Shown here in pieces: positions 38,427 through 54,372 of a stretch of DNA of 64,000 nucleotides. The notes beneath the pieces were generated by a model. It was not told where the DNA came from. It saw only the letters and a list, made by a program, of their open reading frames with translations, and ran no database searches. The first letter of the stretch is position 1, and each line of letters begins with the position of its first letter. The translations under genes and the position numbers were made by a program. Source of the stretch: a virus; the IMG/VR virus record IMGVR_UViG_3300033146_005954, positions 1 to 64,000 of that record; one strand, 5' to 3'.

Positions 38427-39578
38427 ATGAATGAAGTGTTAGTTGGGTTGCAATGGGGCGATGAAGGTAAAGCAAAAATTATTGATTATCTTTCAGTTGA
38501 TTATGATATAATAATTAGATTTAGTGGCGGAGCAAATGCCGGACATACAGTGGTAGTGGATAATAAAAAATTCAAATTTCATTTAATTCCTTCGGGGATT
38601 ATTTATAATCATACAAAAGTTGTATTAGGAACAGATATGGTAATTGATACAAAAGAATTATATGAAGAATTAGATATGTTATCTAATATGGGTATTGAAT
38701 GGGAGAATAGGATTTTTATATCTGATAGAGCACATTTTGTAATGCCTGTTTATAAAAAACAAGATATTGAAAGAGATTTAAAAAGAGATATTCCAATTGG
38801 AACAACTGGAAGAGGAATTGGGATAGCATATGAAAAGAAAATTGCAAGAGAAGGGTATAGATTTTGTGATAATTTAGTTGTTTTACCAAAAGGTTTAAAG
38901 GCAATAAATCTTCCTTATTTCATGGAAGAGAATAAAGATAAGAATATATTATTTGAGGGTGCTCAAGGGGCATTGTTAGATATAAATTGTGGAACATATC
39001 CTTTCGTTTCATCTGGATCAGCAATTTCAGCAGGAGCTTCAGCTGGTGGAGGAATTGGAGTTACTAAAATAGATTCCACTATAGGTGTTTTTAAAGCGTA
39101 TATAAGTAAAGTAGGAAATGGAATTTTTCCAACAAGAATGGAAAAAGAAGATGAAAAGTTTATTAGAGAAAAGGCTGATGAGTATGGGGTAACTACAGGA
39201 AGACCTAGGGATATAGGATATTTAGATTTAGTTGCTTTAAAATATGCTTGTTTAATAAATTCAGTAAATAAATTAGCAATTACACATTTAGATATATTTT
39301 CAAATATGAATGATATAAAAGTAGTAGATCGTTATATGATTAATGGAAAAATAACAGAAGAGTTCCCATCTTCTTTAAAAAAATTAGAAAATGTAGATAT
39401 AGGATATAAACTATTTAGTGGCTGGACAGAGGATTTAAGTAAATGCAAAACATTTGATGAATTACCATTGAATGTAAAAAGTTTAATTATTTATATTGAA
39501 GAATATACAGGAGTTGAAATATCTATTATTTCAACTGGAGCTGATAGATTAAATACAATAACATTGGAGGGAAAATGA
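38427..39578 (+). CDS. purA: Adenylosuccinate synthetase (PurA)
   Basis: 383 aa (bacterial PurA about 430). [14 protein letters not shown] (9-22) keeps the catalytic Asp of GDEGKGK, and H40 (GGANAGHTV) is the catalytic His. [48 protein letters not shown] and [17 protein letters not shown] are all canonical. It converts IMP, Asp and GTP to adenylosuccinate. Unlike PurZ of Z-genome phages it has not lost the Asp. It follows HPRT, suggesting a hypoxanthine-to-adenylate salvage route. AAGGAGAAAGTATG. Confidence 0.88.
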
Positions 39579-39823
39579 GAAAGAAAGCATTAAAAAAAAT
39601 GAACCCTAATAGACATAATATTATATTGTCTTTAAGGAAGAATAGTAATTTGAAAGAAATTTTAAATTCAAAAGGAAAAACAATTTTTTTAAACTTAAAT
39701 AAAAGATTGTTATTTAATGAAAACTATATTGATAAAGAGTATAATATGGAATTAAGAAGACATGCTCAATATCATTATAATAAAATTATAAAAGAACAGG
39801 AGGTAGCAAATGGAGTTAAATGA
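39575..39823 (+). CDS. Basic hypothetical protein (82 aa)
   Basis: 82 aa, very basic ([20 protein letters not shown]), helical C terminus. Overlaps purA by 4 bases and the next gene by 14. No family recognised. Confidence 0.5.
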
Positions 39824-40049
39824 TGATGATAAGCAAAGAGTGAAGCATTTGTTTAATAATTGGTTAGAATTGAAAGATAGTAAAAAGTCTTTAACAGCAG
39901 AACAAAAAGATTTGGTAACTGAAGCATCAGATATTTTAGAGAGTAAAAAAGGGTTGGTTTCTAAACTGTTTTCTTTTTTAGAAAAAAAATTAGAAAATGG
40001 AGAAGATGAACTAGACGAGCTATCAGAAATAGCATCCTTAATAGATTAA
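39810..40049 (+). CDS. Small helical protein, possibly DsbA-like dsDNA-binding
   Basis: 79 aa, all helical, acidic C terminus. LVTEASDILESKKGLVSKLF followed by SFLEKKLENGEDELDELSEI loosely recalls T4 DsbA, the small dsDNA-binding protein associated with late transcription, in length and in an AxxxLxxxxxLxxKLF-type helix. The match is weak. CAGGAGGTAGCAA precedes the ATG. Confidence 0.4.
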   Translation: MELNDDDKQRVKHLFNNWLELKDSKKSLTAEQKDLVTEASDILESKKGLVSKLFSFLEKKLENGEDELDELSEIASLID

Positions 40050-40065
40050 TTTATATTTCCTCTTT

Positions 40066-40080
40066 TGTAAAGATAATATA
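40066..40080 (+). promoter_or_regulatory. Late-promoter-like motif
   Basis: TGTAAAGATAATATA followed by AGAGAGGAAAAATATATG. The flanks TTCCTCTT and AAGAGAGGAA are complementary, so the motif lies in a potential hairpin loop. Confidence 0.6.
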
Positions 40081-52009: not shown

Positions 52010-52046
52010 AACTATTGACATAATTTATTAAAAATTATATAATAAA
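52003..52046 (+). repeat. 44-bp promoter-containing direct repeat, copy 2
   Basis: Identical to 51644-51687, with TTGACA (52015-52020) and TATAAT (52038-52043). It drives the coiled-coil/vWA/PurA-like cluster. Confidence 0.85.
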
Positions 52047-52076
52047 TTAAATTAAAAGAAAATATAGGAGAGAGAA

Positions 52077-52430
52077 ATGAGTGATGAAATAGATTCTGTA
52101 GTAGACAAAAAAGGGGCTTTTTTAAATTCTTTAGTAAGAAATAATAAGCAAATTAGAACAGATCGTGCACAAGCAATTGGAGAAGATACTGAAATTCTTT
52201 ATAAAAGAATGATTGAAGATCTTCAACTTGATATTAAAAGAATGAAAAGAGATCAGGAAAATATGCTTGATCTATCTCCAACAACCGCTCAAAGTTTAGT
52301 TTTAGCAAGTGACTTTAATTCAACAGAGTTTGTTGAAAAAGATATTCAATTAGGTGTGAAAATTAGGAATTTAGAAATTAAATTGGAAATTGCGTCTAAA
52401 AGATATGATTATTTGTTTGGAGGTGTTTAA
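52077..52430 (+). CDS. Conserved coiled-coil phage protein, partner of the vWA gene
   Basis: 117 aa, helical. LSPTTAQSLVLASDFNSTEF followed by VEKDIQLGVKIRNLEIKLEI, which I associate with a conserved phage hypothetical family. Shares TAATGG with the vWA gene start. It may be the ligand or regulator of the vWA protein. AGGAGAGAGAA precedes the ATG. Confidence 0.6.
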   Translation: MSDEIDSVVDKKGAFLNSLVRNNKQIRTDRAQAIGEDTEILYKRMIEDLQLDIKRMKRDQENMLDLSPTTAQSLVLASDFNSTEFVEKDIQLGVKIRNLEIKLEIASKRYDYLFGGV

Positions 52431-53266
52431 TGGGGTCAGGAACTTATTCAGCTGTAAGAGTAAATAGTAGATCAGTAAGTTATGGAAATATGAGAACTGA
52501 AGATATTTTTGTAAATAAAATGAATGAAGAAATGAGTCCTGTAGGAACTATAAGAGAATGTTGTGACTCAACTGAACATCCAAATACTATTCCAATTATA
52601 ATCGCTTTGGATATAACAGGATCTATGGGGTATATCCCAGATAATTTTATTAGAGAAGAAATGGGTAAAATGTTGGGGAATTTGTATAAGAAAGGTTTAA
52701 CAGAATCTCAAGTATTATTTCTAGGAATTGGAGATCATGAATGTGATAATTATCCTCTTCAAGTAGGTCAGTTTGAAGCAGATGATCAACTGATGGATAA
52801 GTGGTTGAAAAATATTTATCTTGAAGGCGGAGGCGGAGCAAATAGTGGAGAAAGTTATTTACTTGCTTGGCTATATGCTGCGAGACATACAAAGCTTGAT
52901 TCTTTTGATAAAAGGGGAAAGAAAGGATTTTTATTTACAATTGGGGATGAACCTAATTTAAAAGGCATTTCAGTAGAGGCTCAGAGAAAAATTTTTGGGG
53001 ATAATGGAGAATATGAATATATTTCTTCAGCTGAACTGTTAAAAGAAGTAAGTTTAAAGTATAATGTATATCATCTTAATATTTGTGAAACCAGAAGTGG
53101 GGCAAAAAAAGCAGTTCAAGATGGATGGATACAGAATTTAGATGAAAATGCAATTATGTTAGAAAGTTATAAAGATATTGAAAAAGTGATTGTTGAATTT
53201 GTAAGTAATCCAAATGAAATAAATAACACAATAGTTGATAAACCAGAAGTAGAGGATATGTTGTAA
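52430..53266 (+). CDS. von Willebrand factor A domain protein
   Basis: 278 aa. IIIALDITGSMGYIPDNF carries the MIDAS DxTGS motif (D61). VLFLGIGDHECDN and FLFTIGDEPNLKG are the next core strands, giving a full Rossmann-type vWA fold. GGGGANSGESYLLAWLYAA is characteristic of the phage version. No signal peptide, so cytoplasmic or virion-associated. Coupled by TAATGG on each side to the coiled-coil gene and the PurA-like gene. Role unknown. Confidence 0.8.
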   Translation: MGSGTYSAVRVNSRSVSYGNMRTEDIFVNKMNEEMSPVGTIRECCDSTEHPNTIPIIIALDITGSMGYIPDNFIREEMGKMLGNLYKKGLTESQVLFLGIGDHECDNYPLQVGQFEADDQLMDKWLKNIYLEGGGGANSGESYLLAWLYAARHTKLDSFDKRGKKGFLFTIGDEPNLKGISVEAQRKIFGDNGEYEYISSAELLKEVSLKYNVYHLNICETRSGAKKAVQDGWIQNLDENAIMLESYKDIEKVIVEFVSNPNEINNTIVDKPEVEDML

Positions 53267-54372
53267 TGGATAAAGTAGTAATTGGATTGGGTTTTGGTGA
53301 TGAAGGAAAAGGAAGTGTCGTAAATTGGTTAGCTAAAAAAGGAAATCCAATTGTAGTAAGATACTGTGGAGGACATCAAGTAGGACACACTGTTGTTGAA
53401 AAAAATCAACATACTTTTTCAAATTTTGGAGCAGGGACTTTATTTAATGTTCATACAGAATGGAACGCAGATACATGTGATCCAGTTGGGTTTAAAAAAG
53501 AATATTTAGTATTAGAAGAAAAAGAAATTATTCCTTCTATTTATATAAACCCTAACACTCCAGTAACTACTATATATGATAAAATGTATAATTTAAAAGT
53601 AGAAGAAACAAATAATCATTCAACTATGGGGGTTGGTTTTGGAGCAACAATTAAAAGAGAAGAAGATAATTATCATCTTTTGTTTAAAGATTTGTTTTTT
53701 AAAAATGTATTAAAAGAAAAAGTAAAAATGATTAAAGACTATTATAATAGAAAAGGTGTTACTATAAGAGAAGAAGATAAAATAGAATTTTTTGAATCCT
53801 GTGATTTCATGATAAAACATATTAATTTTGGATATGTTAATAAGTTAGATAAAATATATGAAAGTTCTCAAGGCTTAATGTTAGATAAAGACTATGGATT
53901 TTTTCCTTTTGTTACTAATTCACAAGTAGGAACTCAAAAATTAGATGTAAAAGAAGATACTGAATTTTATTTAGTTACAAGAGCTTATCAAACAAGGCAT
54001 GGTAATGGTTATTGTTCTGATGAAAAAATGACTCCTAATATAGGAATCCATGCTGAAACAAATGTTATGAATGATAATCAAGGGGAATTTAAAACAAGAG
54101 TATTAGATTTAGATTTGTTAAATTATGCTATGTTATCAGATGATAAAATAAAATATCATAAAAGAAGTAAAAAACATGTTGTAATAACATGTTTAGATCA
54201 CTTACAAGAATATAAATTAACATTTGGAAATGAATTAAAAAGTTTTAAAACAGAATCTGATTTTTTAGATTTTATATCATTTAATTTAGTAAATATTAAT
54301 AAAATCTATGTTAGTCATGGCCCAGAATCTCACAATATACAATTATATAGAAGTAACCTTACTTTTCAGTAA
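53266..54372 (+). CDS. Divergent PurA-like (adenylosuccinate-synthetase family) enzyme
   Basis: 368 aa. GFGDEGKGSVVNWL (9-22) and GGHQVGHTVV with H41 match the PurA nucleotide and catalytic motifs. HSTMGVGFGATIKRE, SSQGLMLDKDYGFFPFVT and VTRAYQTRHGNG parallel PurA loops, but the C-terminal domain is much altered and the GRPR motif is replaced by TRAYQTRHG. It differs strongly from the PurA at 38427, so a different acceptor or nucleotide is likely. The Asp lost in PurZ is kept. Confidence 0.75.
   Translation: MDKVVIGLGFGDEGKGSVVNWLAKKGNPIVVRYCGGHQVGHTVVEKNQHTFSNFGAGTLFNVHTEWNADTCDPVGFKKEYLVLEEKEIIPSIYINPNTPVTTIYDKMYNLKVEETNNHSTMGVGFGATIKREEDNYHLLFKDLFFKNVLKEKVKMIKDYYNRKGVTIREEDKIEFFESCDFMIKHINFGYVNKLDKIYESSQGLMLDKDYGFFPFVTNSQVGTQKLDVKEDTEFYLVTRAYQTRHGNGYCSDEKMTPNIGIHAETNVMNDNQGEFKTRVLDLDLLNYAMLSDDKIKYHKRSKKHVVITCLDHLQEYKLTFGNELKSFKTESDFLDFISFNLVNINKIYVSHGPESHNIQLYRSNLTFQ

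Follow-up and report, generated by a model that had tools for sequence, protein, structure and literature searches.

PurZ/PurZ0, the 2-aminoadenylosuccinate synthetase of Z-genome phages, is marked by replacement of Asp13 with Ser, or with Ser or Gly in archaeal sequences (PMC12884076). In the adenylosuccinate synthetase PurA, R303 touches aspartate and the O2' of inosine monophosphate (IMP), and an R143-type arginine pairs with the alpha-phosphate (PMC8342488). Proteins with a vWA domain are partners of NTPases in established chaperone systems such as MoxR-vWA (PMC7824862). In ADP-ribose operons they have been suggested to act as chaperones that bind peptides, and operons of the Nudix/WYL ARG-centred type have been proposed to act against viral ADP-ribosylation (PMC9503650). 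Described here are a PurA-like gene, designated 53266 after its first nucleotide, and the vWA gene directly upstream of it (52430). Both lie in a 64-kb stretch (the window) of the 67.9-kb virus record IMGVR_UViG_3300033146_005954, which may be incomplete.

The 53266 family is a widespread clade, distinct from both PurA and PurZ. Together with the vWA gene it forms a two-gene unit, termed the module here, in hundreds of phages and many bacteria. From the computed clade, pairing, residue changes, predicted fold and operon, we infer a ligase activity, its substrates and its role. On the best-supported account, the protein may be a GTP-dependent, PurA-fold purine ligase that takes a different amine donor, acts jointly with the upstream vWA protein and serves in NAD/ADP-ribose stress in bacteria. 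This reading is held tentatively but is considered quite possible.

The initial annotation described 53266 as a diverged PurA-family enzyme with an altered C-terminal part, in an operon with a vWA gene, and the searches bear this out. The match to PF00709 (107.6 bits) covers model positions 1-279 only, and there is no Pfam match past 279. Scores fall far under the NCBIfam PurA equivalog cut-offs (89.7 against 402 bits and 68.9 against 395.55 bits) and also under the PurZ cut-off. The AlphaFold2 model (pLDDT 94.8) has a complete PurA fold and is closest to E. coli PurA 1cg3 (Z 40.3, rmsd 2.3, 346 aligned). A maximum-likelihood tree run with PurA and PurZ unites the PurA-like proteins as a single clade (UFBoot 100), distinct from canonical PurA (96) and from PurZ (100), with long branches and with PurZ represented by only two sequences.

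Active-site residues were counted in 112 representatives, 53266 included, and the counts were repeated on 98. D13, K16, H41 and Q224, which include the P-loop Lys and the catalytic Asp and His, are kept in 112/112. T239 is kept in 110/112 and D333 in 109/112. Other positions have been replaced: N38 is Gln in 109/112, T129 is Cys or Val in 106/112, V273 is His in 111/112, and T301 is Gln in 111/112. R303 is lost across the clade. R143 is also lost, and a new conserved Arg (R131 of the window protein, 96/98) lies two residues off. Read in this way, the clade keeps the residues predicted to bind GTP and activate the 6-oxo group, while the predicted contacts to aspartate and to the phosphate/ribose end of IMP are swapped for near-invariant ones of its own. 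Aspartate, or else another amino acid, had been suggested as what 53266 ligates. Since the T301 and R303 equivalents are gone and the amine-donor site is rebuilt, free aspartate is probably not the donor. In the proposed mechanism 53266 would use GTP to activate a purine at its 6-oxo group, as the invariant residues suggest, and its sites for the amine donor and for the phosphate/ribose end of the substrate would be rebuilt ones.

An alignment search of IMG/VR confirmed at least 529 relatives of 53266, and neighbourhoods were taken from the best 80 loci. A vWA homologue lies near the PurA-like gene in 79 of these 80, nearly always directly upstream, and the sole exception has just 103 bases of upstream sequence. 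The reverse search, starting from the vWA protein, found a PurA-like gene at 70 of 75 loci. Three of the others are truncated, and in the remaining two a PurA-family gene lies on another part of the contig. In bacterial species genomes the vWA gene flanks 76 of the best 80 PurA-like loci, nearly all directly upstream, and the carriers include Bacteroidota, Pseudomonadota, Bacillota, Actinomycetota and others. Mycobacteriophage records number 189 for the PurA-like protein and 188 for the vWA protein. Distances within the two families correlate with r of 0.90 against a null maximum of 0.11, which mostly reflects shared ancestry. No fusion of the two genes occurs among the loci collected. Published descriptions of the pair were absent from the literature searched, with most subscription papers and preprints outside it. 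TROVE (Ro60-like) proteins are encoded near the module in several viral contigs (L044:6793-8562 and similar).

All 14 bacterial module genomes that were checked contain one full canonical PurA (561-639 bits) besides the PurA-like copy (112-204 bits). A redundant second enzyme had been thought unlikely from the start, and the separate clade, the canonical copy alongside and the missing aspartate-loop residues agree with that view. The same results bear on whether 53266 is just an ordinary isozyme of adenylosuccinate synthetase whose binding residues have diverged. Such an isozyme would share the whole-length PurA fold and the catalytic Asp and His, but it sits poorly with the clade-wide loss of R303 and of the T301/N38 side chains, the scores far under the equivalog cut-offs, the strict vWA coupling and the constant second-copy status in the bacteria checked. 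It is regarded as very improbable.

The vWA protein had no match in a Pfam search. Its AlphaFold model (pLDDT 92.3) resembles integrin beta I-like domains (Z 16.9, rmsd 2.9, 192 aligned). The metal ion-dependent adhesion site (MIDAS) is intact, with D61, T63 and D173 in 87/87 sequences and S65 in 86/87. A MIDAS-type metal site binds an acidic side chain. The N-terminus follows the pattern M-G-x-small-x-aromatic, with Gly2 in 87/87 and an aromatic residue at position 6 in 87/87, though residues 8-26 are mostly variable. Glycine occupies position 2 in 3.4% of other open reading frames (ORFs). Two vWA genes of unusual structure were seen. In a gammaproteobacterial metagenome-assembled genome (L143:3354-4964) U-box stretches are fused to the vWA protein, whose gene adjoins an intact PurA-like gene. 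In mycobacteriophage Janiyra (L008 gp264-gp267) the vWA gene carries a large insert that its relatives lack, possibly an intein.

For the purine ligase reading, the vWA protein would most likely supply or present the amine, which would belong either to its own N-terminus or to a protein client that it binds. A protein amine donor, perhaps the vWA N-terminus, is offered as a hypothesis that would fit the strict pairing and the invariant glycine. The most specific form of this proposal is that 53266 joins a GTP-activated 6-oxopurine nucleotide to a protein amine, namely the vWA N-terminal Gly or a client held by the vWA and J-domain proteins; in this form it is improbable. We know of no precedent for conjugation of a protein to purine C6. 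If true, this conjugation would be common to phages and bacteria.

The two genes form part of a three-gene operon (52077-54372) that begins with a gene for a small helical protein, and the genes are coupled by TAATG stop/start overlaps. The small helical protein has no match in Pfam, PHROGs, PADLOC or NCBIfam. Among viral loci 40 of 86 have a homologue of it, and among bacterial loci 43 of 80 do. Other loci have an alternative third component, a J-domain protein with a kinase-like fold, and the two occur together in 0 of 166 loci. The type of third component tracks the tree, needing 5 changes where shuffled data average 15.4. The HPD motif is present in the J-domain protein, and no catalytic Asp is apparent in its kinase part. 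An annotated serine/threonine kinase of Janiyra (L008 gp264-gp267) is a homologue of this component. PADLOC models gave no match for the three module proteins, one bacterial pair or the J-domain protein. On this PADLOC result a known anti-phage defence model was set aside.

The J-domain and U-box companions suggest that the clients are proteins. The J-domain component also bears on a different role, in which 53266 would be a GTP-driven sensor or switch rather than a synthetase, with GTP and a purine nucleotide as its ligands, driving its vWA and J-domain partners much as an NTPase drives a vWA co-chaperone. Precedents are the MoxR-vWA systems (PMC7824862) and the vWA chaperones proposed for ADP-ribose operons (PMC9503650), and the aspartate site is dismantled. 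A simple switch, however, would not need the 6-oxo-activating residues, all of which are invariant (Asp13 and His41 in 112/112). This role is unlikely, if credible.

Around the bacterial module in Flavobacteriia, Pfam matches identify an NrtR-type Nudix regulator, NADAR, PARG, Macro-like proteins, ADP-ribosylglycohydrolase, KptA, SIR2 and DUF4291. Genes resembling NadV and phosphoribosyl pyrophosphate synthetase, named from sequence only, are also present in these loci. The uncharacterised DUF4291 lies beside the module within large ADP-ribose operons (L104-L167). Nudix genes flank the module in several other bacterial groups, and the NrtR winged helix was confirmed in two (L163, L151). Elsewhere the bacterial module is accompanied by a Nudix regulator only, or stands alone. 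Outside the ADP-ribose operons the downstream genes seem unrelated, the four sampled being MlaE, SUKH, a pyridoxal-phosphate decarboxylase and a fatty-acid hydroxylase. From the gene neighbours and the Nudix regulators, the module would answer nucleotide or NAD/ADP-ribose stress in bacteria, and phages carry it too.

Several points weigh against a purine ligase with a changed amine donor and a part in NAD/ADP-ribose stress. The R305 equivalent is retained as Arg or Lys. R131, near the R143 position, may stand in for the lost arginine, so that nucleotide monophosphate binding is possible. The conserved residues of 53266 could serve GTP hydrolysis or sensing alone, and the N-terminal glycine of the vWA protein could be structural. 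Module phages are not enriched in ADP-ribose/NAD genes, with Macro over the cut-off in 0 of 28 and NadV-type genes in 3 of 28, judged by base rates for phages taken from PMC9503650. A link to NAD/ADP-ribose in phages was dropped on this result, and the NAD link is confined to the bacterial operons.

A further alternative is that 53266 couples a purine nucleotide to a different amino acid or small amine. The product would be a modified nucleotide that serves as a signal, an inhibitor or a DNA or RNA precursor, and the vWA protein would be an accessory subunit. PurZ shows that a PurA can be retargeted (PMC12884076), and the amine-site residues have been swapped for different invariant ones. Against it, the module has no generally conserved companion gene for a lyase, kinase or polymerase of nucleotide metabolism, and the strict vWA partner with its invariant N-terminus is left unexplained. 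The phage record, which may be incomplete, gave no match for PolA (DNA_pol_A), a DatZ-like (YfbR-like) enzyme or an adenylosuccinate-lyase-type enzyme. Of the Z-genome set (DatZ, MazZ/DUF5664, DpoZ), YfbR-like and DNA_pol_A were not found; no search was aimed at DUF550/MazZ, and the DUF5664 model (MazZ/DUF5664 test) gave no match in any control genome. This alternative is rather unlikely. A role for 53266 in modified DNA, raised in the initial annotation, is not supported and was set aside, as these enzymes were not found in the possibly incomplete record and the module resides in bacterial chromosomes with NAD/ADP-ribose genes.

The second PurA-family gene of the window (38427) was correctly named at the outset as a canonical PurA adjoining hypoxanthine phosphoribosyltransferase (HPRT), with exact coordinates and with the NCBIfam PurA and TIGR01203 cut-offs passed. 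It scores 453 bits against PF00709 and lies above both NCBIfam PurA cut-offs (427 against 402 bits and 397.6 against 395.6 bits). A stretch of about 60 residues, corresponding to positions 147-207 of the family model, is missing. The IMP- and Asp-binding residues checked are retained, with Thr239 replaced by Ser, and in the tree the protein falls with canonical PurA. Residue comparison also upholds the claim that 38427 and 53266 both have the catalytic Asp, where PurZ has Ser. A canonical PurA besides the module was present in one of the 28 module-carrying viral records searched, namely this phage, and an IMG/VR search found no close relatives of the 38427 protein. Hypoxanthine is converted to adenylosuccinate by HPRT and PurA and then passed to the lyase in an established pathway. 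The phage pair could feed adenylosuccinate from hypoxanthine to the host lyase. It would act in ordinary purine salvage, separate from the module, and 38427 likely serves this purpose together with HPRT.

The features of the locus are collected in Table 1. The promoter matches the consensus at 12 of 12 positions, and weaker consensus matches are overall as many as chance gives. A near-identical promoter stretch (ttgacataatttattaaaaattatataataa) occurs twice, at 51656-51684 and 52015-52043, each ahead of a short gene; the first copy is upstream of the gene at 51704.

Table 1. Features of the module and of the separate PurA/HPRT pair (window coordinates).
Feature	Position	Strand	Basis
Hypoxanthine phosphoribosyltransferase	37717..38394	+	TIGR01203 206 bits vs cut-off 150; PF00156
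Canonical PurA, 383 aa	38427..39578	+	PF00709, NCBIfam PurA, residues, tree; separate from vWA module
Sigma-70-like promoter TTGACA-17-TATAAT, 12/12 consensus	52015..52043	+	Directly upstream of operon; consensus match only
Small helical third component (predicted), 117 aa	52077..52430	+	Homologues in other viral and bacterial loci
vWA partner, 278 aa, phrog_2971	52430..53266	+	phrog_2971 E 2.8e-42; AF2 model; MIDAS D61-T63-S65...D173
PurA-like ligase (predicted), 368 aa, vWA-coupled PurA-family clade	53266..54372	+	PF00709, AF2 model, fold match, tree

By gene content the phage looks T4-like. The window encodes a gp23-type capsid protein, gp32-like and baseplate proteins, a primase and a DnaB-like helicase. 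Two ORFs at 9012-10910 contain Hint/intein-like pieces and the second matches the C-terminus of T4 UvsX, which suggests a UvsX recombinase gene carrying an intein. The DNA polymerase (phrog_405) is broken into three ORFs (27456-33143), and the stretch 13435-22585 holds several genes for HNH/homing endonucleases. A tubulin/FtsZ-type GTPase is encoded at 36405-37430 (PF00091, with a weak phage PhuZ match).

PurA-annotated proteins of the vWA-coupled clade retain half of the PurA active site. If the chemistry differs, the PurA (or PurZ) annotations in hundreds of phages and many bacteria would be wrong, and the module would be a phage-bacterium system tied to NAD/ADP-ribose stress.

Compared with PurA, the 53266 clade has in common the fold (E. 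coli 1cg3, Z 40.3), the GTP site, Asp13, His41, Gln224 and Thr239. Unlike PurA, it has replaced the IMP-phosphate and aspartate contacts, is coupled to a vWA protein and coexists with a canonical PurA. PurZ/PurZ0 is likewise a retargeted PurA paralogue, and the tree shows the two sharing a split from canonical PurA. The residue pattern is reversed, however: PurZ has Asp13 replaced by Ser and keeps the Asn38/Thr129/Arg143-type phosphate pocket (PMC12884076, PMC8342488). By the Asp13-to-Ser test the clade falls outside PurZ, with Asp in 112/112. Unlike Z-genome phages, this record yielded no DatZ-like enzyme or PolA. The "PurA-like adenylosuccinate synthetase" of cluster C mycobacteriophages (phrog_1211), near phrog_2971, is of the same family and has the same vWA neighbour. 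It is annotated by similarity only, its vWA protein is called hypothetical, and the papers found give neither function nor pairing. A text search of PMC9503650 gives no PurA or adenylosuccinate synthetase; the operons of that paper, with their Nudix regulator, ADP-ribosyl-hydrolases, NADAR, Macro, calcineurin phosphatase and vWA "chaperone", resemble the bacterial module loci.

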